From the NCBI GenBank assembly GCA_021299375.1, contig JAJTGR010000068.1, positions 1-64,000 on the forward strand: DNA of 64,000 nucleotides, given 5' to 3'. A model generated the notes under the pieces. That model worked only from the letters and a program-made list of their open reading frames with translations, ran no database searches and was not told where the DNA came from. Shown here one piece after another: positions 40,912-62,634 of this stretch (position 1 is the stretch's first letter; each line of letters starts with the position of its first letter). Source of the stretch: Gemmatimonadota bacterium. GTDB lineage: Bacteria > Gemmatimonadota > Gemmatimonadetes > Gemmatimonadales > Gemmatimonadaceae. Made by a program: the position numbers and the translations under genes.

Positions 40912-41607
40912 GTGAGCCGCCTCCTTTCAACCGCTGGCACACGTATGGCGCAGGCTACCCGTCCCGCAGGCTCCTCGGCTGCTCTGAGCGATGATCCGCT
41001 CGAGTCGGTCACGAATTGGCTTCAGCTGAACAGCAAGCCGATCCTCCTCGCCGTTGGGGGCGCGGCGGTGGTTGCGGCCTCGGTGCTCATCTATCGGAGC
41101 ACGACCGCCTCGACGCGTGAAAAGGCGTCGGCCGCGCTGTCGCAGGCGCAGGGTCCGTTCACGGAAGGGAAATTCGACGAGGCGCGGTCGGCTCTGGAGA
41201 AGGTGGCCACGCGCTACGCCGCGACCGCGTCCGGACAGCAGGCCTCGCTGATGCTGGCCCAGGTGCTTTTCGAGCAGAAGAAATACGACGAAGGGATCAA
41301 GTCGCTCGAGTCGGCCCTTGGCAGCGCTTCGGGCGACTTCAAGGCGAGCATGTTGGCGATGATTGCGGCCGGCTACGAGTTCAAGGGCGACATGGGCAAG
41401 GCGGCCGAGCAGTACGCGAAGGCGGCGGCGGCCAGCGCCTTCGCGGCTGACAAGCAGGGGTACGAAGCCTCGCAGGCGCGGAGTCTTATGGCCGCCGGGA
41501 AATCGGCCGACGCCCGGAAGATCTGGGAGCGGCTGGCGCAGTTGGACGGCGCTCTGGTGCAACAGGAAGCCAACGTTCGGCTCGGTGAACTGCTCGCCAA
41601 GCCGTGA
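40912..41607 (+). CDS. YfgM-like membrane-anchored TPR protein
   Basis: 231 residues from GTG 40912 (AAGGG before it) or 220 from ATG 40945. There is a cytoplasmic N-terminus, one membrane segment at about 43-62 (PILLAVGGAAVVAASVLIY), then TPR-like helices in the periplasm (GKFDEARSALEKVATRY; QKKYDEGIKSLESAL). This matches the YfgM/DUF2133 layout, ancillary proteins of the Sec translocon and periplasmic chaperone network. It is the last + strand gene before the polarity switch. An intrinsic terminator follows. Confidence 0.72.
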   Translation: MSRLLSTAGTRMAQATRPAGSSAALSDDPLESVTNWLQLNSKPILLAVGGAAVVAASVLIYRSTTASTREKASAALSQAQGPFTEGKFDEARSALEKVATRYAATASGQQASLMLAQVLFEQKKYDEGIKSLESALGSASGDFKASMLAMIAAGYEFKGDMGKAAEQYAKAAAASAFAADKQGYEASQARSLMAAGKSADARKIWERLAQLDGALVQQEANVRLGELLAKP

Positions 41608-41640
41608 GGCCTGCGCGTTGAGCGGATGCTTGGTGTACGC

Positions 41641-41670
41641 GGCCCGACTTGGCAGTCGGGCCGTTTCGTT
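41641..41670 (+). terminator. Intrinsic terminator closing the + strand gene series
   Basis: A 9-bp perfect stem (41641-41649 with 41654-41662), a TGGC loop, then GTTTCGTT. It is located 33 bp after the YfgM-like stop. Confidence 0.82.
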
Positions 41671-41750: not shown

Positions 41751-41778
41751 TATGCGTATAATACATGTTATGTCAACG
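41751..41778. other. dif: Candidate dif site (XerC/XerD recombination, chromosome terminus)
   Basis: It has the 11-6-11 layout of dif. The left (XerC-side) arm is TATGCGTATAA, the centre TACATG, and the right (XerD-side) arm TTATGTCAACG. Against the E. coli dif (arms GGTGCGCATAA and TTATGTTAAAT) 8 of 11 bases match in each arm, including ATAA and TTAT next to the centre and TGCG in the outer left arm. It lies at the exact point where gene direction reverses, between two converging terminators. A XerD-type recombinase gene is at 61073-62023. The assignment is from sequence resemblance and position. Confidence 0.72.
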
Positions 41779-41879
41779 TTATGTGGTGGATAAGTGTGGG
41801 AAAAATCGTAGGGAAAATCCATCTCGATATCCTGGTTGAGTCGTAACGCGTTTCTAGCAAACAGCTTATCGATGGTCTT

Positions 41880-41907
41880 GTGAGGTTTCGCTCCGGGGAG
41901 ACCTCAC
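41880..41907. repeat. Inverted repeat near the dif candidate
   Basis: GTGAGGT (41880-41886) and ACCTCAC (41901-41907) separated by 14 bases. No T-tract follows on either strand. The role is unknown; it may be an additional hairpin or a protein site in the terminus island. Confidence 0.4.
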
Positions 41908-41949
41908 GAACTCGGTAGACTGTCCACCTGTCCACAATTTCCTGGAATG

Positions 41950-42019: not shown

Positions 42020-42901
42020 TCACAGAGCCTCGATTCTGCCTCGAAAGACCACACGACCTTCTCCCCGCAGTGTCGGCCGGTAGCCGACCGGCTCGGCATG
42101 GTCGAGCGGCTCCAGGCCAACCTCGAGGTCCCGGCCCGAACTCGTACGCAAGAGCACCCTCGGGGTGCTCACGAATCCCCACCGCAGCAACAAGGCCGCG
42201 GTCGCCACTGCCCCAGTGCCGCATGCCAGCGTCTCGCCTTCGACGCCGCGCTCGAAGGTCCGGTAGCGCCAGCGACCCTCGGACATGGGGGAGACCCAAT
42301 TCACATTCGCTCCCGAGGGGCCGGCCGCCCCATGCCAGCGCAGGCTGGGCCCCCGCGCGGCAATCTCCACCGCCTCCGCATCGCCGCACAGCACCACGAG
42401 ATGCGGAACGCCCGCCCTCACAAAGCCGATCCGTCGTTCGCCAGCGACGAGGTCGATCGGCATGCCGAGACGCATATCCGTGACTGGCGGCAGCTCGATC
42501 GACGGCAGCCCGTCCACGCGACTTCGGATCAGTCCGGATCCAGTCGAAAGTCGCATGGCATCGGCTTGGGCCAGCCCCAGCGTCGCCGCGAGTGTCGTTG
42601 AACACAGTGTCGCGTTCCCGCACAGGTCCGCTGGGGTCCCATCGGCGTTGAAAAAGTGGATCCGCACGTCGGCTTCCCCGGCCAGAGGCTCGAGAACCAC
42701 CAGCCCGTCGGCGCCTATCCCGTTGTGGCGATGGCATATAGCGCGCACCACCTCAGGTTGGGTCACGGCTTCGATCGAAACGTCGCGCCCATCGAAGAAG
42801 ACAAAGTCGTTCCCGGACCCGGTCATCTTGGCGAAGGGCAATCCGTGCAGCGCGGCCAGCGAGGGGGCGGCCTTCAGGCGGTCCTCCAGGGGCCCCTGCA
42901 C
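42020..42901 (-). CDS. dapF: Diaminopimelate epimerase
   Basis: 293 residues from the GTG at 42901; a TTG at 42907 overlapping the upstream stop would add two. It converts LL- to meso-diaminopimelate for lysine and peptidoglycan. Both catalytic Cys are present: NADGTPADLCGNA and ETLACGTGA. FAKMTGSGNDFVFFDG is the family start. About 22 residues precede it, slightly more than usual. It is the last gene of the - strand series before the terminator. Confidence 0.95.
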   Translation of the reverse strand: MQGPLEDRLKAAPSLAALHGLPFAKMTGSGNDFVFFDGRDVSIEAVTQPEVVRAICHRHNGIGADGLVVLEPLAGEADVRIHFFNADGTPADLCGNATLCSTTLAATLGLAQADAMRLSTGSGLIRSRVDGLPSIELPPVTDMRLGMPIDLVAGERRIGFVRAGVPHLVVLCGDAEAVEIAARGPSLRWHGAAGPSGANVNWVSPMSEGRWRYRTFERGVEGETLACGTGAVATAALLLRWGFVSTPRVLLRTSSGRDLEVGLEPLDHAEPVGYRPTLRGEGRVVFRGRIEAL

Positions 42902-42903
42902 CC

Positions 42904-43665
42904 TCAAACCTTACCGCTCAGCGCCCACCAGCGCAGGCGCCAAACCATCCAGATCGCTTCCCGTACGATGCGCTTCGACATCTTGGACTCCCCTTCCGTG
43001 CGGTCGTGGAAGACGATCGGGATCTCGGCGAACCGGAATCCACGTTTCCACGCCCGGAAGCTCATTTCGATCTGAAACGCATAGCCGTTGGAGCGTACCT
43101 CATCGAGCGGGATCGACTCCAGGACGGCTCGACGGAAGCACTTGAATCCGCCGGTGGCATCGCCAAGCTGAAGGCCGGTGACCGCGCGGGCGTAGATGTT
43201 CGCCCCGTACGACAGCATCAGTCGCGTCATTGGCCAGTTCACGACCGTGACCTTTCCTTCACGATAGCGCGAACCGAGTACGACATCGGCCTCGCGGATG
43301 GCGGCGAGGAACTCCGGAAGATGCGATGGATTGTGGGAGAAGTCGGCATCCATCTCGAACACAAACGCGTAGTCCCGCTCCAGCGCCCAGCGGAATCCCG
43401 CCAAGTAGGCGCGGCCCAATCCTTCCTTCCCGGCTCGATGCAGGACGTGCACACGCTGATCCGCTGCTGCGAGTTGGTCAGCAAGGCGTCCGGTGCCATC
43501 GGGCGAGTTGTCGTCGACGACCAGCACGTCCAGCCGCGGGTCCTGCTCGAGGATCAACGGGACGATGCGGGTGACGTTTTCACTCTCATTATACGTCGGA
43601 ACGATGACGACCCCGCGCTCCCCGATCGCCAGCGATCCACGGGGCGGCGTCCTGGTGCGCGTCAC
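42904..43665 (-). CDS. Polyprenol-phosphate mannosyl/glucosyltransferase (GT2)
   Basis: 253 residues. A GT-A fold of the DPM1 type: VVIVPTYNESENV (about 19-31), VVDDNSPDGT, then FEMDADFSHNP carrying the metal-binding Asp triad, and GSRYREG. It has no C-terminal membrane segments, as in single-domain polyprenol monophosphomannose synthases. It would load a sugar on a lipid carrier for later surface glycosylation. Its stop overlaps the dapF start region, and its start overlaps the YfhO gene by 4 bp. Confidence 0.88.
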   Translation of the reverse strand: MTRTRTPPRGSLAIGERGVVIVPTYNESENVTRIVPLILEQDPRLDVLVVDDNSPDGTGRLADQLAAADQRVHVLHRAGKEGLGRAYLAGFRWALERDYAFVFEMDADFSHNPSHLPEFLAAIREADVVLGSRYREGKVTVVNWPMTRLMLSYGANIYARAVTGLQLGDATGGFKCFRRAVLESIPLDEVRSNGYAFQIEMSFRAWKRGFRFAEIPIVFHDRTEGESKMSKRIVREAIWMVWRLRWWALSGKV

Positions 43666-46157: not shown

Positions 46158-47120
46158 TCAGGGTGAGCCGGACCGTCGGAGTGCCGCGCGTTGGGCGGGG
46201 GGGAGCCAAAGCAGACCGACTACCCCCGGGAGGACTTCGAGCATTGTAAGCCATACCCGCGAGGCAGCGCCAAGGATCGCGGCGTCGCCCTGCCCTGCGG
46301 CGCCCATGCCGACGAGCAGGCCGCTCAACGCCACTTCGCGGAATCCCAGTCCCCCCGGAGCGAACAACACGAGGTACCCGATGAGGTAGGAAGCCGAGAA
46401 AACTGCGATGAACGTCGTCGGATTGCCACTGACCTGCGGTGTGACACCACGCGCAAAGAGCGCGAAAGCCACACCATACCCGATCCACGCGATGGCGTTG
46501 AATGCGGTGGTCGCCCATATGGTGTGGGCGGCCAACTGCTGGCGAGCGAGCGGAAGGCCGCGCCCGCGGGAGAAGCGGTCGAGGAGTCGCGGCAGCAGCG
46601 CGGGAAGGATGGCGACCCCCACAACGAACGCGAGGGAGGCACCCAGCGCCATGACCCGTAATCCCGGGTACAGCCGGTCGAGCGCGTCGGCACCGGTCAC
46701 GACCGCGATGGCAATTCCGGCGCCCAGGTTGAGCACGGTGCCAAGGACGGCGGCACCGGCGGCTGCCAAGCCGGAGACGCCTTCACGGGTAGCCAGCACG
46801 CCAAGGGCACCGATCGACCAGACCTTGCCGGGGAGGTATCGTCCGAGGTTGGCGATGGTCCAGATGCGCACGGCGACCGGGTACGCGAGCTCCCCACCCC
46901 ATCCGCGAAGCAGCAAGCGCCAGCTCTGAATGAGCATGGCGTAGGTGGCGAGTACCACGCCGCTGGCGGCGGCGACCCAGGGCCACGCGATGGTGACTGA
47001 GGCCGCCGCCTGCCGCACGTCGGCCCACTGCCGAGCGAGCGCCCAGGCGATGAAGCCGAAGGTCAAGGCCAGCAGGCCGCCCCGTACGACCGGATGGCGG
47101 AGCATCGACAGTGCACTCAC
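46158..47120 (-). CDS. Lysylphosphatidylglycerol synthase-like membrane protein (UPF0104)
   Basis: 320 residues from GTG 47120, which overlaps the upstream stop by 4 bp. About eight membrane segments, with the family landmarks NLGRYLPGKVWSIG (about 93-106) and LFAPGGLGFREVALSGLL near 265. Such proteins are the integral-membrane part of MprF, or stand alone beside glycosyltransferases as putative lipid or glycan flippases. The cytosolic tRNA-dependent domain of MprF is absent, so aminoacyl transfer is not expected. The longer upstream frame is an Arg/Gly-rich shadow. Confidence 0.85.
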   Translation of the reverse strand: MSALSMLRHPVVRGGLLALTFGFIAWALARQWADVRQAAASVTIAWPWVAAASGVVLATYAMLIQSWRLLLRGWGGELAYPVAVRIWTIANLGRYLPGKVWSIGALGVLATREGVSGLAAAGAAVLGTVLNLGAGIAIAVVTGADALDRLYPGLRVMALGASLAFVVGVAILPALLPRLLDRFSRGRGLPLARQQLAAHTIWATTAFNAIAWIGYGVAFALFARGVTPQVSGNPTTFIAVFSASYLIGYLVLFAPGGLGFREVALSGLLVGMGAAGQGDAAILGAASRVWLTMLEVLPGVVGLLWLPPAQRAALRRSGSP

Positions 47121-48337
47121 TCTGCGACTCCAGCCAACGCCGCGTCGCGGTAGTGCGCCAGATAGCGCTCGGCGACAGCCGCGGGCGAGAAGCGTTCGCT
47201 CATGCCCTGGCGCGCCGCCTCGCCCAGCCGCTCCACGGTGGCGATGTCGTGCACGACCCGCCCGATCGCGCCGGCCAGCTCCGCAATGTCTCCTGGCGGC
47301 ACCAATGTGCCGCCCGAGTCCGGACGCACGACATCGAGCAGGCCGGCGTCGGCATAGGCGATAACTGGTGTCCCGCACAGTTGCGCTTCGACGGCGACCA
47401 ACCCCAGTCCTTCCCCGCGCGACGGGACGACGGTGGCCCGCGCCTGCCGATAGAACGGGACCAGAGCCGGCTGCGGCAGTGCGCCGTGCCAGCGGACGCG
47501 GGAGGCAAGCCCTCGCGCCGTGGCGAGTGATTCAAGTGCGTCACGACGCGGACCGTCGCCGATCACGTCGAGCGAGAGACCGGCACACGACGGCATCGCC
47601 AGCGCCTCGAGCAGGTCAGCCAGCCCCTTCTGCTCGTTCAGGCGGCCGACGAAGAGCACACCGTGGCGGGTGGCCATCGCGGCCCCGCTCGTCGCAGGGA
47701 ACGGCTCGTCGAACATGCGAATGTCCACGGGCATCGGCGACACGGCGATGGGTCCATCCGGGGCGATGCGCCGGGCGATGTCGGCAAGCCAGGTGGAGAC
47801 CGCCGTCCGTACAGTCGCCTGTCGGAGCACCCGGCGCATGATCGGGTGAGCCGCCCGGGTCCTTTCCGCCAGCCGCACGTCGGAGCCGTGCATGGTGATG
47901 ACGAGGGGCGGGTCGCCCGACCGTTGTGCTCCCCAGAGCGCGAGGGCCGCCGGAAACCACCAGTGGGCATGCACGATCTCGTACGGGCGGCCGTCGCGAC
48001 GTGCCTGGTCGATTGCGGTGCGGACGGCTCGCCGCATGGCCATGAGCAGCTGAACGAGCGCCAGGCGACCACTCCACGATCCACGGACCGTTTCGGCCAT
48101 GCTGCCGGTGTATGCCAGCGTCATGCGGGCCTCGCTCGCATAGCGTATGCGGCGGACCTGTACCCCCTCGATCAATGCCTGCGCGGTCAAACCGGGCGCA
48201 CCTGGCGCCAGGATGTCGACCTCGGCGCCCGCGTGCTGCAGCGCCACGGCGAGACGCAAGACGAACGAACCGGCCGCATCCCCCGGATACCGCGGCACGT
48301 TGTGGGTGACGAAGAGGACGCGGGGCGCGCGCGTCAC
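47117..48337 (-). CDS. Glycosyltransferase family 4
   Basis: 406 residues with the GT-B fold. The N-domain starts VLFVTHNVPRYPGDAAGSF (acceptor side). In the C-domain VLFVGRLNEQKGLADLLEA and the nucleotide-sugar motif VPSRGEGLGLVAVEAQLCG are clear, with the catalytic EX7E near residue 320. The probable role is adding a hexose to a surface polysaccharide or lipid; donor and acceptor are unknown. GTG start. The stop overlaps the next gene by 4 bp. Confidence 0.9.
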   Translation of the reverse strand: MTRAPRVLFVTHNVPRYPGDAAGSFVLRLAVALQHAGAEVDILAPGAPGLTAQALIEGVQVRRIRYASEARMTLAYTGSMAETVRGSWSGRLALVQLLMAMRRAVRTAIDQARRDGRPYEIVHAHWWFPAALALWGAQRSGDPPLVITMHGSDVRLAERTRAAHPIMRRVLRQATVRTAVSTWLADIARRIAPDGPIAVSPMPVDIRMFDEPFPATSGAAMATRHGVLFVGRLNEQKGLADLLEALAMPSCAGLSLDVIGDGPRRDALESLATARGLASRVRWHGALPQPALVPFYRQARATVVPSRGEGLGLVAVEAQLCGTPVIAYADAGLLDVVRPDSGGTLVPPGDIAELAGAIGRVVHDIATVERLGEAARQGMSERFSPAAVAERYLAHYRDAALAGVAE

Positions 48338-48351
48338 CGCAGCCCGTGGGC

Positions 48352-49386
48352 TCAGGCGTCGTCGCGCACGACGCCGTGCGCTGGTTCGCCACGCTCGTCG
48401 CGGTCCATCTGGTTCGCCGCGAGTTCGTCGAGTTCACGGCGCATCTCGCGAACCTCCGCGCGCTGCTGCGCAATCTGCTCACCGAGCAGGCCGGTGGCGA
48501 AGAAGATCGACCCGAGCATGAGGCTCGTCTGGATTACCGTCCACACCCACCGCTGTCCCTGCCCAGTCACGGCTAGCCACGAGAGGGCGCCTAGTCCGGA
48601 CAGTACCCCAATCGCGAAGAGGGCCACGCCAAGCATCCCGAACGCCAACAGCGGCTTCTGGCCGAAGCGCAACTCGAACCATACGGCGAGCATGTCGAGC
48701 ACGCCCACCGGAATACGGGAGAGGCCGAACTTGGACCGCCCGGCGTGGCGCGGATAGAGCGGAATGGGTACTTCGGTCACGGTGAAGCCCTGCGCAGCCG
48801 CCATCACGATCATGTAGCGGTGGAAGTCCGGGCGCATTGGCAGCGCGGCCATGATTTCACGGCGGTAGGCCTTCACGTTGTTGAGGTCGCGGACAGGCAC
48901 ATGAAAGAGCGTCCGGCTGAGGCCATTGTAGATCTTCGACACGAAGGCCTTCTCGTACTTGCCCTGCTTGAAGCCCGTGACCATGTCGGAGTCGCCGGCC
49001 AGAATCGGTCCGACGAGGCTCGGGATGTCTTCCGGCTTGAACTGCAGGTCGGCCGGAAAAAACACGAGCACGTCACCACGCGCATGAAGGTAACCGGTGC
49101 GCAGCGCCTCGGCGATGCCGCGCTGGGCGCGGTGCCGCACCGGGTGAAGGAACGGATACTGCGGCCGCAACTGCTGCAGGAGCGCCCAGCTCTCATCGGT
49201 CGACCCATCGTCGACGACTACCACCTCATAGCTCGCCTGTTGCGCGTGGATCATCGCGGCGCACAATTCGAGAAAGAGCGGGAGGTTTCCCGCTTCATCT
49301 TTGGCGGGGACGAGGACGCTGACGTCCACGGGTGTCCGCAGTGCCATGCGAGGTGTCGTGCGACGGGGGCGAGAGCTCACAGCCAT
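48352..49386 (-). CDS. Membrane glycosyltransferase family 2 (ArnC/GtrB-like)
   Basis: 344 residues; ATG 49347 is an alternative start (MALRTPVDVSVLVPAKDE). GT-A domain at about 18-250 with VVVDDGSTDES, FFPADLQFKPED (a Asp-x-x variant of the DxD area) and RDLNNVKAYRREIM. Two membrane segments follow (about 255-280 and 290-315), then a charged coiled-coil tail of about 40 residues. This resembles enzymes moving sugar from UDP-sugar to undecaprenyl phosphate. It lies 30 bp after rpoN in the same direction. Confidence 0.87.
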   Translation of the reverse strand: MAVSSRPRRTTPRMALRTPVDVSVLVPAKDEAGNLPLFLELCAAMIHAQQASYEVVVVDDGSTDESWALLQQLRPQYPFLHPVRHRAQRGIAEALRTGYLHARGDVLVFFPADLQFKPEDIPSLVGPILAGDSDMVTGFKQGKYEKAFVSKIYNGLSRTLFHVPVRDLNNVKAYRREIMAALPMRPDFHRYMIVMAAAQGFTVTEVPIPLYPRHAGRSKFGLSRIPVGVLDMLAVWFELRFGQKPLLAFGMLGVALFAIGVLSGLGALSWLAVTGQGQRWVWTVIQTSLMLGSIFFATGLLGEQIAQQRAEVREMRRELDELAANQMDRDERGEPAHGVVRDDA

Positions 49387-49416
49387 CCGGAATCGAAGTG
49401 GCGACGGGCGACGGGG

Positions 49417-50910
49417 TCAGACGCGCTTGCGCATGCGTGCGGGGAGCACGCCGAGCTGATCGCGATACTTGGCAACGGTGCGACGAGCGATCTGGACGCC
49501 CGTCTGCTGCAGGATCTCCACGATCGCCTGATCGGTGAGCGGATTGCGCGGGTCCTCACCGCTCACCAGCTTCCCGATCTGGTCCTTGATGCCGCGCGCC
49601 GAGACGTCGTCGCCGTCGGAGGTGGAGAGCCCCGACGAGAAGAAGAACTTGAGCGGCAAGACGCCACGCGGCGTCTGCACGAACTTCTCGTTGGTCACAC
49701 GGCTCACGGTGGACTCATGCATGCCGACCGCTTCGGCAACTTCGCGCAGCGTGAGGGGCCGCAGCCCCTGCACACCGCGTTCGAAGAAATCGCGCTGGCG
49801 GTCGACGATATAGTGCATGACCTTGAGCATGGTCTGTCGCCGTTGCTCGATGGCCTGAATCATCCAATTGGCCGAGTTGAGCTTGTTGGCGATGAAGTCC
49901 TTGCTTTCGGTGTCGAAGCGCTTCTTGTCGCGGGCAATCTCCTGATAGGCACGCGACAGCTTCAGGCGCGGCAGGTTGCCATCATTCAGGAAGATATGGT
50001 ACTGCCCGTCGATCTTCTCGACCACGAGGTCGGGAATGATGTAGTTGTCGCTGCCGGCACTGAAGCGCAGCCCGGGCTTGGGATCGAGCTTGGCGATCTC
50101 GTCATGCGCGGCCTGCACGGCCTGGGCGCTGATGCCGAAGCGCTTGGAGAGCTCGCTCCAGCGGTGGGCGATCAACTCCTCGAAGGCCTCGTCGACGAGG
50201 CGCCAGGCCAGCGACCCCCCCTGTCCGGTTGCGCGCAGCTGCAGCAGCAGGCACTCTCGCAGGTCGCGAGCTCCGACGCCCGGCGGATCGAGATCCTGGA
50301 TGACCTGCAGCATCGCGGCCATCTCAGGCTCGGTGAACGAAGGCACATCGGTGTCGACGTCGCGCTCCTCCGCCGCGCGCTGAAGCACGTCATTGACGCC
50401 CCGCTGGATCTCCTCCAGCGGACAGGCGAGATAGCCGTCATCGTTGATGTTGCCGACGAACTCCTCCGCGAGGAACATCTGGCGCGGCGACAGGTCGAGC
50501 AACGACAGCTGCTCGGTGAGGTGATCCGAGAGGTCCCGCGTATCGACGGTGACAGGCTCGAAGTATTCCCGCTGCTCCTGTTCCTCACGCTGCCCACCGG
50601 TCTCGAAACCGTCGAGGAGGACCGCCTCCCAGTCGACATCGTCGTCACCGGTCTTCTCGGGTTCCTGCTCGGCGGCGGCCTCCGGCTCGGTGAGATCCTG
50701 CGCCTCGCCGGTCTCGTCGGACTCCGACGCGTCGTCGTCTTCCTCCTCGGGTTCGACAAGCTCGAGGAACGGGTTGGTCAGCAGCTCCTGCTTGAGATGC
50801 TGCTGCAGGTCGAGCAGCGGCATGTACAGCAGATCCATCGCCTGATACAGGCGTGGATTGACCTTCAGTTCCTGCCGCAGGCCGGCATGCTGCTGGAGAC
50901 CCGTCTTCAT
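49417..50910 (-). CDS. rpoN: RNA polymerase sigma-54 factor RpoN
   Basis: 497 residues. Region I is Gln/Leu-rich ([19 protein letters not shown]; binds bacterial enhancer proteins). A very acidic region II follows (about 50-115). Then come the core-binding domain and the HTH ([20 protein letters not shown]), and the C-terminus has the RpoN box [10 protein letters not shown]. It needs AAA+ activators, none of which are in the window. The order lptC, lptA, lptB, rpoN matches proteobacteria. ATG overlaps lptB by 4 bp. Confidence 0.97.
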
Positions 50911-52118
50911 GCGGTCGGCACTCCGGCCTCGGCGTCGGCAAAGCGGGCGCGGAGGCGCGCGGTCAACGTCGGCCCGAGATAGATCTCGGCGACGGTTTCG
51001 TCGTAGACCAGCTCCTGCACCGTACCCGATACCTTCACGCGCCCATCGTACATGATGTACGCGCGGTCGACAATGTCGAGCGTCTGCTCGACATTGTGAT
51101 CGCTGATGAGCACACCGATGCCGCGATGGCGCAGCCCGGCGACGATGGTCTGGATGTCGTGCACCGCGATCGGGTCCACACCCGCGAACGGCTCGTCGAG
51201 CATCATGAACTTCGGCTGCGTCACGAGTGCGCGGGTGATCTCGAGGCGCCGGCGTTCTCCGCCCGAGAGCTGGTACGCCCTGCTGTGGCGCAGGTGCGCG
51301 ATACTGAGTTCGCCGAGCAGCTGCTCGAGACGCGCCCGGCGCTCATCCGCCGAGAGGGGAAGCGTCTCGAGGATGGCGAGGATGTTCTGCTCGACGGTGA
51401 GTTTGCGGAAGATGGACGGCTCCTGCGAGAGATAGCCGATGCCCTGACGCGCCCGTTGATACATGGGCATGTCGGTGATGTCCCGCGTGTCGAGGCGAAT
51501 ACGCCCCTGCTGTGGGGCAATGAGGCCCACGAGCATGTAGAACGTGGTGGTCTTGCCGGCACCATTCGGCCCCAGCAGCCCGACGATTTCCCCCTGCTGT
51601 ACGCGGAGCGCCACGTCATTCACGACGCGACGCCCCCGGTAGATCTTTGTCAGCCCGTCGGCACTGAGCACCGATTCGGCACCGTCGGCGGGCATCGCCA
51701 TCGGCGCCGCCGTCGCCCCCGGCCCGCGCTGCTCCCCGGTCTGGCGGAGCTGCCGAGCCAGTTCAGCCCGATGATCGACCAGCGCCTCCCAGATGGCTGG
51801 CGTCACCAGCACGATACTCTCGGGGGCCATGGCGCCACTCGGCGGCAGTTCGACCACGCCCGCCGCCGCCAGGCGTGGCAGGAGCGCGGTGGCCAGATGC
51901 GCGCGCACGTCGCCGGGGGCCCGGTGACGGCCGTCGCTGGATCGCTCGATGAACCGCGTGGCCAGCACGTGCAGCGGCACCGTACCCGCGGCGTCGGCAT
52001 CCTCCAGCAGGGCTCCAAACGCGATCGCCAGTGATCGATCCCCATGCACCGCCCGTTCCAACACCGCGTCCACGGTGGTGGCTGACTTGGCAAGCGAGGC
52101 GTCGAACGAATCGGTCAT
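50907..52118 (-). CDS. lptB: LPS export ATPase LptB with a long N-terminal extension
   Basis: 403 residues, against about 240 for E. coli LptB. Residues about 153-395 are the ATPase: Walker [10 protein letters not shown] (near 183), signature LSGGERRR, Walker [17 protein letters not shown], and the H-loop [10 protein letters not shown], all LptB-like. LptB powers LPS extraction by LptFG and passage through LptC, LptA and LptD. Residues 1 to about 145 are extra, helical, rich in Ala and Leu, with [17 protein letters not shown] that might be part of a winged helix. The ATG overlaps lptA (ATGA) and no start nearer the domain is better placed. Confidence 0.93.
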
Positions 52119-53887
52119 GGACGGCGACGATATGCGGAAAGGGTCGACACGGTGCCTGCTCCGACGGGTTCCCTCGCGGGACGCTCGAACGGGGGCGGGA
52201 CGGAAGGTGGACGGCGGGCGGGAGCCCCACCGGTCGACGGTGGCGGCGGCGAGCCTGACCTGGGCCGGCTCCTCGCAGCGCCGTCCCGACGGGCGGTGGT
52301 GTCGGACAGACTGTCGAGGACGGGTTCGAGATACACCCCCGACGCGGCGGAATCTACTCGAACGTCGCGCACGGCACCCGTGTCGAAGTTCACGAAGATC
52401 CGAACACCGCGGACGTAGTTGATACCCGGCGGCGACGCTCGCCCACGGCTGTTCGCAATATGGAAAAGTGAACTGGCGTTGCCGAGCGCCCGGATCTCAC
52501 GGATGCGGGGGCCTTTGGCGGTATCGGCCGTCGCCGTGCTATCGAAGAACGCGAACACGCTGTCGCCACTCAGGACATCCTTGTCCGGGGTGCGGATCTT
52601 GGTGGTGTCCGGGGTTCCGACGGCCCGGGCATCACCGACGGCGCGCACTTCGCGGACGCGACGCGCCGCGAGCCGGATGCGGAGGGAATCGGCGTCCACA
52701 TCCTGTTGCGGCGTGGTGGCCCTGGAGCGGCCCGGACCGAAGGCGAAGGCTTCGTCGAGTTGCTGCTCCTTGAGGCGCAGGTCGATCCACTCCGAGGTCA
52801 GCACAAGCTGATCGTTGGTCGCGGTCGCCTTGTGACTCGCGAACACGCGATCGAGCTTGCGCTCGGTGCTGAACAGGTCGATGGTGTCCGCATTGAGCAC
52901 GAACCGCTGGGCCGAGTCGGTGTTCGTGATGCGCGCGCCCCGTACGAGCCGCGCGCGCTGCGTGATCTTGTCGAAGGCCGACGAGTCGCTGCGGCCGTTG
53001 ATCTGCTGGCGTTCGATGACGACGTCGCCCCACGCCATCAGCAGCGAGTCACCGGTATCTTCGAAGCGGTTGGCAATGACCGTCACTGGCGGGCCCGGGC
53101 GGCCGAGGCTGTCCTTCTCGATCAGCCGAGCCGTGGAGCGGGAGGGGGCCACCATGCGGGCAATCGGGCGCTCCGGCGTCGAGCGGTAGTACTCGATGCT
53201 CGGCCCCATGAACGTGCTGCCGGTGCTCAACTGCGTCGCCACAACGTTCCCGTCGGCATAAAGGCGACCTTCTCGCGTGAAGTACGTGGCGTGCGCGGCC
53301 GCGACCTGCATCTTGCCTGGCTCTTCGTACGTCACGTTGCCGTACAAATTGACGATTCCCGCCTGCTGAAACTGCTCGGCGCTGTCAGCGCGCAGCCGGT
53401 TGTTCTCGCCCTGGCAGCGTCCGACGAAGCCGCCGCCGATGAACGTATTCGAAATCGAGTCATTCATGCGGCTGTACAGCAGCCGCGTCTCGGGGGGGGA
53501 ATCGGCGAAGTCCAACACGCAGTCGCGGGTCGCGGGCTTGGGCTTGCGGGCCGGCTTGGCCTTTGCCTTGGCGACCGAGTCCTTGACCAGTGAGTCTCTG
53601 GTGATGGAGTCCTTGCGCGCTGCAGCGCGCAGCGCCACGGAGTCCCTGGCAGCGGCAGCCGCCAGAGAGTCCGCGCGCAGCGAGTCCGCCCTGAGGGCTG
53701 CGTCACGCCCGGTGGGCAGGACGGCGGGTGGTCCGGCCGGCGCGGCGCCCGGTGGGGTGGCCGACGCACTCGGCGATGGCGCAGAGCGTGCGGCGCCACG
53801 GCAACTGGCGATGGCGGCGACTGCCGCCACCACCGCCAGGCGCCACCCAGCGCGGCGACGCGCTTTGTGGACCACCCGGGCGTCCAT
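52115..53887 (-). CDS. lptA: LptA/OstA-domain protein, probable lipoprotein
   Basis: 590 residues from the ATG that overlaps the lptC stop (TGATG). The N-terminus has a membrane stretch with a lipobox (AAIASC), then a Ser/Ala/Lys-rich linker with DSL repeats to about residue 130. OstA-like beta-jellyroll segments follow ([48 protein letters not shown]). The tail is Pro/Arg-rich. LptA normally bridges the periplasm, carrying LPS to LptD. It is three times larger than E. coli LptA (185) and lipidated, so it may be a membrane-tethered variant with several jellyrolls. Confidence 0.82.
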
Positions 53888-54450
53888 CAACGGGTGGGCA
53901 CCGAGACGGGGGCCACGCCCTTGCAGGCCCGCAGGCACCGGAAATTATTCAGCCGCGGATCCGACTCGAAGCCTATTCCCGTCAGAGAGCGCTTCGGTTC
54001 GTTGAGAACGAAAGCGGAATCCGTGTAGAACTGGTTGCGGACCTGATCGAACACGAGCTGCGGCGTGGTGAGCCGCTTGCCGTCGTCGCGGATGACGACC
54101 ACATCGCCGCGAGCCTCGATGCGAGACAGGCGCGAGTTGTAGCTCGCTGTCTTCGACGTCATGGTCCCGTCCTTCAGCCCCTGCGCCGTGTAGAAGGTCA
54201 CATTCACCCGCTTCAGCTCGAGACGCGTGCCGTCGTCGTAGGTGAAGGTCGTGTCGGCGAGGAGTTCACCCTTGTTCACGCCCTTGTCGGTCAGAAACGT
54301 GCGCATCCCGAACAGCATCTGCTCGGCGGAATCGGGCAGCATCGACTTGGCCGCTCGCTGTGCGGCGGGCTTTCTCGAGGCCGGGCAGCCTGCGGCCGTG
54401 AGCAGCAGCGCGGCAAGCATGCTCGTGCCGGTGGTACGCAGCAGGCGCAT
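53887..54450 (-). CDS. lptC: LptC-like LPS export lipoprotein
   Basis: 187 residues. The signal peptide ends in a lipobox (LTAAGC, Cys at about 22), so unlike E. coli LptC, which keeps a membrane helix, this one is probably lipid-anchored. The jellyroll core is seen in ADTTFTYDDGTRLELKRVNV and SRIEARGDVVVI. LptC passes LPS from LptFG to LptA. The gene lies between kdsD and lptA, as in E. coli. Three bases separate it from kdsD. Confidence 0.88.
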   Translation of the reverse strand: MRLLRTTGTSMLAALLLTAAGCPASRKPAAQRAAKSMLPDSAEQMLFGMRTFLTDKGVNKGELLADTTFTYDDGTRLELKRVNVTFYTAQGLKDGTMTSKTASYNSRLSRIEARGDVVVIRDDGKRLTTPQLVFDQVRNQFYTDSAFVLNEPKRSLTGIGFESDPRLNNFRCLRACKGVAPVSVPTR

Positions 54451-54453
54451 GAT

Positions 54454-55416
54454 CTAGACGGCCCCCGCACGCATGAGATCATGCAGGTGCACCACCCCGG
54501 CGAGCCGCGCGTCGCCATCGACTACCGGCATCGCCATGATGCCGAAGGTTTCCATGCGATGCACGACAGCACTGCCAAGCTCATGGACCTGGGCCACGCG
54601 GGGCGACGACGTCATCACGGAGGTAACGGGGATCGGGAGGATATCCTGCTGGCGCTGCAGCAACCGGGTGAGGTCGCCCGCGGTGACGACCCCGGATACG
54701 CGTTCCTGTTCCACAACCAGCGCAATACCACGATGCCCCGCCAGCAGGACCACGGCATCGCGCATGGTGGCGTTCAGGTCGAGAACCGGTAGCGGACTCG
54801 TGATCATGACATCGCGGACCCGCGTCAGGAGTCGTCGTCCGAGCGCGCCGCCCGGGTGGAGCCGCGCGAAGTCCTCGGCGCGAAACCCCTTCTCCTGCAG
54901 CAGCGCCACGGCGAGCGCATCGCCAAGAGCCAGAGTGACGGTGGTGCTGGTCGTGGGCGCCAGGTCATGTGGACAGGCCTCTTCGCGCCCCCCCAGTTGG
55001 AGCGTCACGTCGGCATGGCGACCCAGGCGGGATGCGGGCGCCGCCGTCATGGCGATGAGGCGCACCCCCATGCGGGCCAAGGCCTCGATGAGGCCCAGCA
55101 GTTCCTCACTTTCCCCACTCTTGGAGATGAGGATCGCGACGTCGTCGGGACCGACGATGCCGAGGTCACCGTGCAGCCCCTCGACCGGATGGAGAAACAT
55201 CGCCGGTGTGCCGGTCGAGGTGAAGGTCGCGGCCATCTTGCGACCGACGAGTCCCGACTTCCCGACACCGGCGACGATGACCCGCCCGCGACAGGTGGCC
55301 AGCAGCTCGACAGCGGACACGAAGGCATCGCCCAGCGCCGCCGCCGAATCGGTCAAGGCCTCCGCTTCGAGGGTGAGGACGCGGCGCCCCCGCTCGATGA
55401 TTGCCTCCGCACTCAT
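54454..55416 (-). CDS. kdsD: Arabinose-5-phosphate isomerase KdsD
   Basis: 320 residues from the ATG overlapping kdsC (ATGA). It converts ribulose-5-phosphate to arabinose-5-phosphate, the KDO precursor. The SIS domain is at about 25-185 (VIVAGVGKSGLVGRKMAATF; ISKSGESEELL; GDALAVALL), and two CBS domains are at about 200-320. A longer frame to 55500 overlaps kdsC and is rejected. It is flanked by kdsC and lptC, which fixes the identity over GutQ. Confidence 0.95.
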   Translation of the reverse strand: MSAEAIIERGRRVLTLEAEALTDSAAALGDAFVSAVELLATCRGRVIVAGVGKSGLVGRKMAATFTSTGTPAMFLHPVEGLHGDLGIVGPDDVAILISKSGESEELLGLIEALARMGVRLIAMTAAPASRLGRHADVTLQLGGREEACPHDLAPTTSTTVTLALGDALAVALLQEKGFRAEDFARLHPGGALGRRLLTRVRDVMITSPLPVLDLNATMRDAVVLLAGHRGIALVVEQERVSGVVTAGDLTRLLQRQQDILPIPVTSVMTSSPRVAQVHELGSAVVHRMETFGIMAMPVVDGDARLAGVVHLHDLMRAGAV

Positions 55417-56068
55417 GCGCTGGCCCCCGCGCGGGCCAGATCCCCATCGGCGTGGTCCACGCTGCGGCTTCGTACGTACCGCTCGACAGCGTCCATCCAT
55501 TCGCCGCGGGCCTGCAGCAACGCTTCGGCGAACTCGCGCACCGCCCCGCGCCCCCCGCAGGCGGTGAGTTGCAGCGTTGCCAGCCGACGCACCTCCGGTA
55601 CCGCGTTGCCGACGGCGACGGGCAAGCCGACCCCACGCATGACACCGAGATCCGGTAGGTCATCCCCCACGAACGCCACGTCGTCGAGCGGGCAGTCCAG
55701 GTCGGCGCACAACCGCCGCAGGGCCGGCAGCTTCCGCGCGTGGACGTCCTGGACCACGTGTTCGACCCGCAACTCCTTCGCCCGCATGGCGACCGCCTCC
55801 GACACGCGGCCGGTAATGATCGCGAGCGTCAGTCCACATTCGCGCAGCATGACGATGCCCAGGCCGTCCTGGATGTCGAAACGCTTGAACTCGAACGGCA
55901 TGGCGCGATCGCCGTCCAGGGTGGCGCCGAGGTAGATGCCGCCGTCGGTAAGCACACCATCGACATCGAAACAGACGAGACGAATGCGGCGCGCCAGGGT
56001 CGGTTCGATGCGGGGATGCTGCAGGGGCATCGCCGGCAACACTGCGGTCTCCATGTCTGCGGGGACGC

Positions 56069-56072
<4 letters not shown>
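55413..56072 (-). CDS. kdsC: KDO-8-phosphate phosphatase KdsC
   Basis: 219 residues. HAD superfamily: the catalytic motif is CFDVDGVLTDGGIYLG (about 34-49), with TGR as motif II and VAFVGDDLPDLGVM as motif IV. It is a small, cap-less C0-type enzyme, usually tetrameric. It releases KDO from KDO-8-phosphate. About 30 residues precede the core, more than in E. coli; a nearer ATG (METAVLP) is possible. Overlaps kdsA and kdsD by 4 bp. Confidence 0.93.
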
Positions 56073-59419
<3,347 letters not shown>

Positions 59420-59441
59420 TGTCCAGTCGGTCGGTTCGTGG

Positions 59442-59469
59442 TTGCAGCAAGATTCACGCCAGCTAAGAT
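59442..59469 (+). promoter_or_regulatory. Candidate terC promoter
   Basis: TTGCAG (59442-59447), 16-bp spacer, TAAGAT (59464-59469). Its -10 lies on the same base pairs as the -10 of the kdsB promoter on the other strand. Predicted start near 59476. Confidence 0.5.
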
Positions 59470-59493
59470 ACCCGGTTCGGCGCGCCAAGGCAA
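59465..59493 (-). promoter_or_regulatory. kdsB operon promoter
   Basis: On the - strand: TTGCCT (59493-59488), exactly 17 bp, TATCTT (59470-59465). Predicted start near 59458, about 39 bases before the kdsB ATG. The shared -10 with the terC promoter means the two are probably used in turn, not together. Confidence 0.6.
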
Positions 59494-59537
59494 ACACGCG
59501 CGTCCGTCCCGTTCTCACGCTCCTCGCACCCGAAGGC

Positions 59538-60506
59538 ATGCCCACAACGACGTGGTGGATCGGTTTCAACTCGCTCGTACTCCTGTTGCTCGCCCTCGAC
59601 CTGGGCGTGTTCAACCGGACAGCGCACACCGTCAGCGTCAAGGAGGCGCTCGGGTGGAGCCTGGTCTGGGTATCCCTTGCGATCGGCTTCGGGCTCTGGA
59701 TCGGCAGCAGTATGGGCCGCCAGCCGATGTTGGAGTTCTACGCCGGCTATCTGGTCGAACAGGCCCTGTCCGTCGACAACCTGTTCGTCTTCATTCTCGT
59801 GTTCGGCTACTTCCGGATTCCGCCCGAGTTGCAGCACCGGGTGCTGTTCTGGGGCATCCTGGGCGCGCTCCTGATGCGCGGCGCGATGATCGGAGCCGGC
59901 GCCATACTCATTGCGAAGTTCCACGCGATCATCTACGTGTTCGGCGCGTTCCTTGTCTACACCGGATTCAAGATGGCCTTCGGTGGCGAAAACGAGGTCG
60001 AACCGGAATCGAATCCCGTGATTCGCCTCGTGCGACGATTCATCCCCATCACCACGCGCCTGCACGGGCAGGCCTTCTTCGTGCGTGAGTCGGTCACGCC
60101 CGGCGGCGCCATCAAGCTCGTGGCCACGCCACTTTTCGTGGTGCTGATGCTCGTCGAGACGACCGACGTCGTCTTCGCGCTCGATTCCATCCCGGCCATC
60201 TTCGGCGTGACGCGCGACCCCTTCCTCGTCTACACGTCGAACGTGTTCGCCATTCTCGGATTGCGCTCGATGTACTTCGTGCTGGCCAACGTGATCGGCA
60301 AGTTCCACCTGCTCAAGTACGGCTTGTCGATCGTGCTGTCCTTCGTGGGAGTCAAGATGCTCGTCTCCGAGCGCTGGCCGATCCCGATTGGCGTTTCGCT
60401 CGGGATCGTGGCCGGTGTGCTGGTGGCGAGCATCCTGCTGTCCCTGCTCATCCCGCCGAAGCCGAAGCCGGCGGTCGAACTGCCCGCGTCATGGCCAGAA
60501 AATTGA
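59538..60506 (+). CDS. terC: TerC-family integral membrane protein
   Basis: 322 residues with about nine membrane segments. Diagnostic motifs are EQALSVDNLFVFILVF (about 74-89) and ETTDVVFALDSIPAIFGVTRDPF, whose acidic residues lie within the membrane. Family members (Alx, MeeF/MeeY) export Mn2+ or help metal loading of secreted enzymes. No yybP-ykoY manganese riboswitch is visible in the 118-bp upstream gap. It is the only + strand gene right of the polarity switch. Its last 59 bases overlap the pabA gene tail to tail. Confidence 0.93.
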   Translation: MPTTTWWIGFNSLVLLLLALDLGVFNRTAHTVSVKEALGWSLVWVSLAIGFGLWIGSSMGRQPMLEFYAGYLVEQALSVDNLFVFILVFGYFRIPPELQHRVLFWGILGALLMRGAMIGAGAILIAKFHAIIYVFGAFLVYTGFKMAFGGENEVEPESNPVIRLVRRFIPITTRLHGQAFFVRESVTPGGAIKLVATPLFVVLMLVETTDVVFALDSIPAIFGVTRDPFLVYTSNVFAILGLRSMYFVLANVIGKFHLLKYGLSIVLSFVGVKMLVSERWPIPIGVSLGIVAGVLVASILLSLLIPPKPKPAVELPASWPEN

Positions 60507-61056
60507 CGAGCAACGTGCGCCCGTGCTCGGTGAGAATCGACTCCGGGTGGAATTGCACCCCCCACACGGGGTGCTCGCGGTGCCGCAACGCGTGAACCTC
60601 CTCGTGGTCGTCGACGGCAACCGCGGTGACGCAGAGCACCGCGGGGAGCGTAGCCCGTTCCACCACGAGCGAGTGGTAGCGCATCACCCCGAAGGGTGAC
60701 GGGATACCGGCGAAGAGGCCCGTGCCGTCGTGCTCCACCCGGGACACCTTGCCATGCATGACACGGGACGCGCGCGTCACCACCCCGCCGTACGCCTCCC
60801 CAATGGCCTGGTGGCCGAGGCAGACCCCGAGCAACGGAATCGAAGCGCCGTATCGGCGGATCACCTCGACCGAGATCCCTGCCTCACGTGGGGAGCAGGG
60901 CCCCGGGGAGATCACGATCGCGTCCGGTGCCATGGCCCCGACCTGTTCGACGCTCAGGGCATCGTTGCGGTGCACTTCGAGGGTTTCACCCAACTCGCCG
61001 AAGTACTGGACGAGGTTGTAGGTGAACGAGTCATAGTTGTCGATGACGAGCAGCAT
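60448..61056 (-). CDS. Anthranilate/aminodeoxychorismate synthase glutamine amidotransferase
   Basis: 202 residues, class I glutamine amidotransferase: MLLVIDNYDSFTYNLVQYF, SPGPCSP, the nucleophile in LLGVCLGHQAIGE (Cys about 79) and VQFHPESI with catalytic His-Glu. It supplies ammonia for p-aminobenzoate or anthranilate (pabA or trpG). The synthase subunit is not adjacent, so the two roles cannot be separated. The C-terminal tail (RAVRPPASASAG) is encoded antisense to the end of terC. Confidence 0.93.
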   Translation of the reverse strand: MLLVIDNYDSFTYNLVQYFGELGETLEVHRNDALSVEQVGAMAPDAIVISPGPCSPREAGISVEVIRRYGASIPLLGVCLGHQAIGEAYGGVVTRASRVMHGKVSRVEHDGTGLFAGIPSPFGVMRYHSLVVERATLPAVLCVTAVAVDDHEEVHALRHREHPVWGVQFHPESILTEHGRTLLVNFLAMTRAVRPPASASAG

Positions 61057-61072
61057 GGGGAGACCTGGTCAT

Positions 61073-62023
61073 TCACGCGCGCGGGTGGAACTGGCGGTGT
61101 ACGCTCCGAAGATACTCGCGGTCGACGTGGGTGTAGATGTGGGTGGTGGCGATGTCGGCATGGCCAAGCATCTCCTGCACCGCGCGCAGGTCGGCTCCGC
61201 CCTGCAAGAGGTGCGTGGCGAAGGAGTGCCGCAACGTGTGCGGGGACACGGCTTTCTCGATTCCGGCCAGCTGGACGTACTTGCGAAGGATGGTCCACGC
61301 GCCCATGCGTGTCAGCGGTCGCCCCTGTCCATTGAGGAACAGCAGGCCCCTGCCCTCGCCGCGCTCCAGCACCGGCCGCAGTTCGCGCAGATACACGGCC
61401 ACCGCACCGATGGCCGAGCGCCCGATGGGCACGAGGCGTTCCTTGTTCCCCTTGCCGAGCACGCGCACGAGGGCGTCCTCGAGCAACACATCCTTCATCG
61501 CAAGTCCTATCCATTCGGACACGCGCAACCCCGCCCCGTACGCCAGTTCGAGCATAGCGCGATCGCGGAACGCCAACCGTTCATCCAGCGCGGGCGCCGC
61601 CAGCAAGCGCGTGACTTCGTCCACACTGAGCACATCCGGGAGCGTCCGGCCGCGCTGCGGCGCATCGAGCCGCTCCGTCGGGTCGATCGACACGAGTCCC
61701 TCAGCGTTGAGCACGCGGAACCAGGTGCGCAGCGCCGAGATGTTGCGGCGGATGGAACTGCTCTTTCTCGGGGGCACGGTATCGCGCAGCGAGTAGACGA
61801 ACTCACGCAGGGCCGCCGCCGTGATGTCGGACGCGCGATGGACGCCGTGCGTACGCAGGAACTGCACGCAGCGCACGACGTCACGACGGTACGCCTCGAC
61901 CGTTCGCGGCGAGGCACCGTGCTCGAGGACCAGCGCGTCGACGAACGCCTGAACGTGAAACCCTGCCATGGCCGCTCCCTCGTCCTGGCCTGCCGTGTCA
62001 GCTGACTTCGAATGGCGGGCCAT
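61073..62023 (-). CDS. xerD: Tyrosine recombinase XerD-type
   Basis: 316 residues from the ATG that shares one base with the dedA stop (TAATG). The N-terminal core-binding SAM-like domain (FVDALVLEHGASPRTVEAY) is followed by the catalytic domain with all active residues: Arg in GAGLRVSEW, Lys in GKGNKERLVP, His and Arg in HTLRHSFATHLL, His in LGHADIATT and Tyr in IYTHVD. Xer recombinases resolve chromosome dimers at dif. Genes on both sides are housekeeping, so it is not a phage integrase. The dif candidate is at 41751-41778. XerC versus XerD cannot be fully decided by eye. Confidence 0.9.
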   Translation of the reverse strand: MARHSKSADTAGQDEGAAMAGFHVQAFVDALVLEHGASPRTVEAYRRDVVRCVQFLRTHGVHRASDITAAALREFVYSLRDTVPPRKSSSIRRNISALRTWFRVLNAEGLVSIDPTERLDAPQRGRTLPDVLSVDEVTRLLAAPALDERLAFRDRAMLELAYGAGLRVSEWIGLAMKDVLLEDALVRVLGKGNKERLVPIGRSAIGAVAVYLRELRPVLERGEGRGLLFLNGQGRPLTRMGAWTILRKYVQLAGIEKAVSPHTLRHSFATHLLQGGADLRAVQEMLGHADIATTHIYTHVDREYLRSVHRQFHPRA

Positions 62024-62634
62024 TACCGCTTGCTCGCCGCCAGGCGGCGTGACACCAGCACGCCGAGCGCCACCACGGCGACCACGGCGGCGACCAGGCC
62101 TGCCGTCCGCTGCTGCGCGGCGATTCGAGACAGCAGTGCCTCGGCGTTGCTGCCGGCCCGGAATGCCAGCACACACACCAGACCGTACCACACCCCCGAA
62201 GCCAGCGACATGGCCAGCAACGACCGACCGGCGCCAATCCGGAGCGCGCCGGCCACGGGCGGTACCACGGCTCGCACGCCGGGAAGGAACCGGCTGATGA
62301 TCACGGCCACCACGCCCTGGGCAGCAAAGCGCGCGGAGAAGCGGGCCGCGGCGCCCGCGGGGAACACCGAGGGGAAGCGCTGCTCGAGCCACGGCAAGCC
62401 GAATCGCTGGCCGAATCCGTACATGAGCATGGCCCCTCCGATATTGCCGATCATCGTGGCACTCCAGACGCCCACTTCCGTTCCCGAGCCACGGGCCGCC
62501 ACGAAGGCTCCCAGCGCGATGACGGTGTCGGCCGGCAGAGGGGGAAAGACGTTTTCGGCGAAGGCCGCAACGAGAATCGCGGCATAGAGCAGCGGGGCCG
62601 GAAGGGACGCGAGCCAGGGAAGGAGGTCGGACAT
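62023..62634 (-). CDS. DedA/SNARE-associated family membrane protein
   Basis: 203 residues from ATG 62634. The DedA signature is seen in AAFAENVFPPLPADTVIALGAF (in the first 45 residues) and ISRFLPGVRAVVPPVAGAL, with about five membrane segments. Members recycle undecaprenyl phosphate or phosphatidylethanolamine across the inner membrane. ispF makes isoprenoid precursor and lies just upstream, which fits the C55 lipid theme. The exact lipid is unknown. The stop shares one base with xerD. Confidence 0.9.
   Translation of the reverse strand: MSDLLPWLASLPAPLLYAAILVAAFAENVFPPLPADTVIALGAFVAARGSGTEVGVWSATMIGNIGGAMLMYGFGQRFGLPWLEQRFPSVFPAGAAARFSARFAAQGVVAVIISRFLPGVRAVVPPVAGALRIGAGRSLLAMSLASGVWYGLVCVLAFRAGSNAEALLSRIAAQQRTAGLVAAVVAVVALGVLVSRRLAASKR

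Follow-up and report, generated by a model that had tools for sequence, protein, structure and literature searches.

A chromosomal dif site of a Gemmatimonas-group genome with a candidate accessory protein-binding site beside its XerD arm

Chromosome dimers are resolved by XerCD recombination at dif upon activation by FtsK, and chromosomal dif is not known to need more than XerC, XerD and FtsK. The locus described here raises the question of whether it holds a chromosomal dif, and whether a second, separately conserved element belongs to that site. The window analysed is a stretch of 64,000 nucleotides corresponding to positions 1-64000 of a 74,048-base contig, one of 116 contigs in a 4.48-Mb draft genome. 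The initial annotation had placed a candidate dif at 41751-41778, with two 11-bp arms around a 6-bp centre and eight of 11 bases in each arm matching E. coli dif, and both statements are borne out. The 28-mer on the + strand, read from the window sequence as TATGCGTATAA-TACATG-TTATGTCAACG, is composed of a XerC-type arm (41751-41761), the centre (41762-41767) and a XerD-type arm (41768-41778), the two arms being partly inverted.

The site is present in one copy per chromosome and kept in relatives. Its core, TGCGNATAAN6TTATGTNAA, showed one match in the window with 0 mismatches, compared with 0.06 matches in shuffled sequences even when up to three mismatches were allowed. The arm pattern occurred a single time in the draft genome at up to three mismatches, with 0 control matches. 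Near-identical 28-mers were found mostly in records of Gemmatimonas, Gemmatimonadaceae and Gemmatimonadetes, which places the host in that group. TGCGYATAAN6TTATGTNAAC was present at zero mismatches in 26/29 congeners and at up to two mismatches in 27/29, nearly always as one copy. The few second copies of the core are contig-end copies (G011 and G024) or weak chance matches with unrelated centres (G000 and G005). A diverged form of the site was also found in the family and order beyond the genus. Two peripheral observations concern the same sequence. A near-perfect sigma-70 promoter look-alike (11/12) overlaps dif on the - strand of this genome (41749-41776) because of its unusual TTATGTCAACG arm. 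A contig filed as Candidatus Kuenenia stuttgartiensis (L033) carries a Gemmatimonas-type dif and dapF, and is therefore probably a mislabelled or contaminated bin.

The position of the site was examined by GC skew and gene polarity. In the single-contig complete chromosomes of G028, G020 and G029, the skew sampled along the chromosome flips sign at dif, and dif is 42-45% of the chromosome away from dnaA, roughly opposite the origin as the initial annotation had expected. The change points in these genomes are 147, 127 and 66 bp from dif and that in this contig is 150 bp away, distances to be read at a resolution of a few hundred bases and no finer because the break cannot be placed more precisely than the gap between the converging genes. 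The anticipated sign change at the site holds for the three complete relatives, but in this contig the skew only drops from +0.043 to about 0 and is not reversed. The switch in gene polarity is visible in the chains of open reading frames, with genes on the + strand up to a tetratricopeptide-repeat protein gene (40912-41607) and on the - strand from dapF, encoding diaminopimelate epimerase (42020-42907), onwards. The gene dapF adjoins dif throughout the genus and in a large part of the order. Converging terminators had also been claimed, and the one downstream of dapF on the - strand (41977-41955) was identified by a terminator scan, whereas the hairpin assigned to the upstream + gene (41640-41663, + strand) is seen by eye only, fails the T-run rule of the scanner and is absent from its list.

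The genome encodes the proteins expected to act at such a site. XerD (TIGR02225, 341.3 bits against a cut-off of 329.6) and XerC (TIGR02224, 338.6 against 335.15) were called by equivalog models, both above cut-off, and FtsK is encoded with alpha, motor and gamma domains. The XerD-type recombinase gene noted earlier at about 19 kb from the site corresponds to an open reading frame at 61073-62392 on the - strand, in which homology to shorter relatives spans 61073 to about 62011; in each of the four genomes compared, 17-21 kb separate xerD from dif. Among all 8-mers in 1.87 Mb from three relatives, the most polarised is GGGCAGGG, read towards dif at 105:11, an 8-mer with experimentally demonstrated KOPS activity for the FtsK of E. 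coli and V. cholerae (PMC2533119). In the window, five KOPS-like GGGMAGGG motifs to the left of dif (starting at 1045, 23847, 30039, 35120 and 39786; 1045-39793) are all on the + strand and four to the right (starting at 46288, 48557, 56274 and 61348; 46288-61355) are all on the - strand, such that 9/9 in the window and 10/10 in the contig point to dif. In the relatives their orientation likewise switches at dif with few exceptions, showing that polarisation of the E. coli KOPS motif extends to this distant phylum.

Taken together, the unique 28-mer, its conservation, the skew break, the KOPS symmetry and the genes for XerC, XerD and FtsK support the assignment of 41751-41778 as the chromosomal dif of a Gemmatimonas-group genome. 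This assignment is well supported, and recombination at the site is predicted. The site itself is of a known kind and its existence is not new, as a prediction study of 2011 already reported a dif for the single Gemmatimonadetes genome that it covered (PMC3025954).

Beyond the 28-mer, a conserved box array lies beside dif that the initial annotation missed, as it falls outside the coordinates considered there. Two boxes follow the XerD arm on the + strand. Box A1, GTGGATAA (41786-41793), lies 7 bp from dif and 10 bp, one helical turn, before box A2, TGTGGGAAA (41795-41803), which lies 16 bp from the XerD arm and belongs to an order-wide motif with the family consensus TGTGGRNAA. The pair GTGGATAA[C/G]TGTGGGAAA is found to the right of dif in 26/29 congeners, starting after exactly 7 bp; the string GTGGATAASTGTGGGAAA likewise occurs in 26/29 congeners, only at dif and always after 7 bp, and GTGG at the A1 offset was present in 19/19 congeneric loci. 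In those genomes the tandem pair occurs once per genome and, with up to one mismatch allowed, nowhere else; G011 gave two entries, apparently a single site divided between contig ends.

To follow the box outside the genus, 297 Gemmatimonadota genomes were searched for a composite of the dif core, a gap of 10-24 bp (15 lengths) and TGTGGRNAA. Matches were obtained in 118/297 genomes from 43 genera, a raw count inflated by shared ancestry, and in 0 with the reversed control. All 119 matches fell at a gap of 17 (70 matches) or 18 (49 matches), placing the box 15 or 16 bp after the 28-mer, while the bases between dif and the box vary freely. Since the composite search selects for the box, an independent set of 26 non-congeneric dif loci was assembled with dif-only patterns, and 15 of the 26 showed GTGG at one offset, against a mean per offset of 0.16. 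The strict box is missing in about 40% of non-congeneric dif loci, several of which carry near variants. The distance between dif and the dapF stop codon ranges from 27 to 394 bp, yet the box keeps its place, indicating that it goes with dif, not with the adjacent gene. On the XerC side the left flank showed no comparable shared motif, apart from a few species that have a TGTGG box at -22/-23. The case is strongest in the spacing, which stays constant in at least two families although the sequence of the spacer changes.

In Gemmatimonas the A boxes are part of a wider array. Alignment of 17 congeneric right flanks gave the order dif, 7 bp, A1 and A2 with their 10-bp period, block B, TCACGAA and block C, with further GTGG boxes, often one or two, at +32 and +51. 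Block B (41844-41871), midway between A and C and at about +65 to +93 in the aligned flanks, is dyad-like with the consensus TAAGNNNTTG-N5-CAANNNNTTA and is degenerate in this genome. The short conserved TCACGAA follows on the + strand (41904-41910). Block C comprises two GTGG-family boxes in the opposite orientation, CTGTCCAC and CTGTCCACA (41920-41936, - strand), and lies 141-144 bp from dif in 31/36 loci. The lengths between blocks are conserved and their sequences are not, as would be expected if protein and DNA formed a folded complex. Across the order the A boxes alone are shared, and outside Gemmatimonas blocks B and C are not clear. Block B was also considered as a dif-specific motif and rejected, because its profile matches upstream of gyrB, pilin and groES genes as well, where the dyad TAAGNNNTTG-N5-CAANNNCTTA was observed (L084:10401, L079:13420, L119:14344 and L088:19723). 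On that basis block B is probably the site of a general regulator.

We read this locus as a chromosomal dif carrying a candidate accessory protein-binding site on its XerD side, with a probability of roughly 0.8. Judged from motif and spacing, the A boxes are most likely a binding site of an accessory protein that works with the Xer complex. In the proposed scheme, FtsK would translocate along GGGMAGGG motifs, reach XerC and XerD at dif and switch them on, whereupon the two recombinases would resolve chromosome dimers. The candidate accessory site would consist of a TGTGGRNAA box held 15-16 bp from the XerD arm, either alone or in tandem with a second box one helical turn away. A protein bound to them may contact, or be positioned by, the Xer-FtsK complex on dif, a suggestion prompted by the fixed distance and the 10-bp phasing with respect to XerD or FtsK. 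Like the accessory proteins at plasmid cer and psi, it would probably act on the dif synapse at the terminus, which it might stabilise, gate or localise. In Gemmatimonas the array grows to about 165 bp, with a dyad at its centre and a box pair in inverted orientation, and may loop through block B. Extended to the whole order, the proposal would be of a two-part dif, in which a XerCD/FtsK core is joined by a candidate accessory site whose helical position next to XerD does not vary, and dimer resolution (or fork convergence) would be under the control of a DNA-binding protein; we regard the chances of this extension as even. The array may also serve a process other than dimer resolution, because FtsK-gamma and KOPS are present and dimer resolution should not need accessory sequences.

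Motif likeness makes DnaA the obvious candidate binder, although an accessory protein of the Xer complex is preferred here. An ordinary dif might simply be flanked by DnaA boxes forming a terminus-located DnaA-binding or titration locus, similar to datA, that ties initiation control to duplication of the terminus. The boxes do look like TTATCCACA in reverse. Across the roughly 2 Mb sampled, no other cluster of these GTGG-type 9-mers is as dense as the dif array, and in G071, of a related genus, parB is adjoined by perfect DnaA boxes in tandem with the same 10-bp period. The detailed box sequences argue otherwise. Most of the 119 order-wide A2 boxes are TGTGGAGAA, TGTGGGAAA or TGTGGACAA; the commonest, TGTGGAGAA (53/119), is a poor DnaA box, and a perfect TGTGGATAA is found in just 8/119. 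The A1 box of the genus never carries the T that would complete the DnaA consensus, no perfect DnaA box is present in the dif arrays of G028, G020, G029 and G000, and the array does not provide the several 9-mers matching TTATNCACA that mark a DnaA-box cluster. A titration site, moreover, would not need a spacing from dif fixed within 1 bp. We consider binding by DnaA a serious but doubtful alternative, with perhaps one chance in a few of being correct.

Several DnaA-related features were observed elsewhere in these genomes. The dnaA promoter region of the genus holds a single perfect TTATCCACA. Several DnaA-box-like 9-mers lie in an intergenic region that is conserved 300-400 kb from dif and has CTTGNTTGCCAACACG in common with the sequence upstream of dnaA (G028:C1:1819061-1819560, L286; G020 about 1630466-1630670, L285; G029 about 1822900-1823220, L287). 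DnaA-like match pairs were present in 9/9 genomes searched, and a second DnaA-like protein showed two tandem DnaA-type AAA+ domains with no C-terminal DNA-binding domain seen by Pfam (G028:C1:1881571-1883310, L087:1571-3310, and likewise G000:C1:87109-88677). Tandem DnaA-box-like pairs with a block-B-like dyad lie directly downstream of parB in G071 and G112 (L263:1499-1620 and L279:1440-1530) and are, from their sequence, possibly oriC in these two genomes; as oriC of the genus they were dropped, being absent from that place in Gemmatimonas G028.

The opposed orientation of pairs A and C also recalls the replication-fork trap of Bacillus subtilis, which is composed of opposed TerI/TerII pairs. 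Such a trap at dif would account for two tandem pairs, inverted relative to each other and separated by about 125 bp, at the skew break, a break that is itself located no better than the gap between converging genes. It is possible but not favoured because A persists outside the genus where C is absent or unclear, and termination at dif was not required in published simulations (PMC3317982). We regard it as improbable. A promoter or structured RNA, as opposed to a DNA site tied to dif, is a very improbable source of the flanking conservation. A promoter-like match does overlap dif on the - strand, but it depends on bases peculiar to this genome, and both neighbouring genes converge on the gap. 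An RNA element was rejected, as no covarying pairs were found in 17 sequences and no Rfam family reached threshold. That the 28-mer is a scar or target of a Xer-using mobile element and not the resident dif is hardly credible, since, although some viral contigs carry dif-like sites and seven match the composite pattern, dapF remains the neighbour across the genus and a large part of the order, each genome holds one copy, skew and KOPS are symmetric around the site and no plasmid match was found.

A viral contig (L307:7608-7651) has two dif-like sites, of which one is E. coli-like and has a TGTGG box at a distance of 14 bp; the contig may represent a Xer-using phage or element. Two further identities for the boxes were tried and set aside. 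As a KOPS beside dif, the box on the right arm would point away from dif, and it does not match GGGNAGGG. The MraZ operator has the form TGGNN-N5-TGGGN, which the box pair fits, but MraZ is missing from the Gemmatimonadales tested: 21/22 genomes gave no match and the remaining one, G000, gave a 25-residue fragment. In a separate observation, mraZ was apparently lost from the order with the dif box, and sister families keep it.

A motif kept within 1 bp of the same distance from dif in at least 43 genera suggests that a further factor occupies this position and acts together with the complex. Identifying the box-binding protein would give access to a second level at which dimer resolution or replication termination is controlled, and the signature of dif plus box offers an easy terminus locator for draft Gemmatimonadota genomes.

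Compared with known systems, the site resembles E. coli dif as a single-copy, 28-bp, two-arm site at the skew break with 16/22 arm bases identical, and the E. coli XerCD-FtsK system in the polarity of the KOPS GGGNAGGG and the FtsK gamma domain. E. coli dif, however, is without a TGTGG box at a fixed distance and has no GTGG at that flank position, and the location of xerD 17-21 kb from dif is a further contrast with E. coli. Vibrio cholerae dif1 and dif2 are likewise FtsK- and KOPS-dependent chromosomal sites, for which conserved flanking motifs for accessory proteins were sought by the authors and none found (PMC2533119), whereas here one is kept across an order. The clusters of GTGG-type 9-mers around a central motif are shared with E. 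coli datA and other DnaA-box clusters, from which the array differs in a box consensus that departs from the DnaA box and in a spacing tied to dif. A further analogy is with cer (ColE1) and psi (pSC101), in which a Xer site is accompanied by an adjacent accessory region of about 200 bp with protein sites at defined positions (PMC11724359), as candidate sites are here. In those plasmids the accessory region is on the XerC side and is bound by PepA together with ArgR or ArcA (PMC11724359), whereas the present array flanks the XerD arm, uses a different motif, and is chromosomal and found together with FtsK-gamma and KOPS. For this reason the array is not a member of the cer/psi class, although by analogy it may work likewise. 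The new part is the precisely spaced second motif beside dif, which is absent from the well-studied chromosomal sites and is probably bound by a protein.
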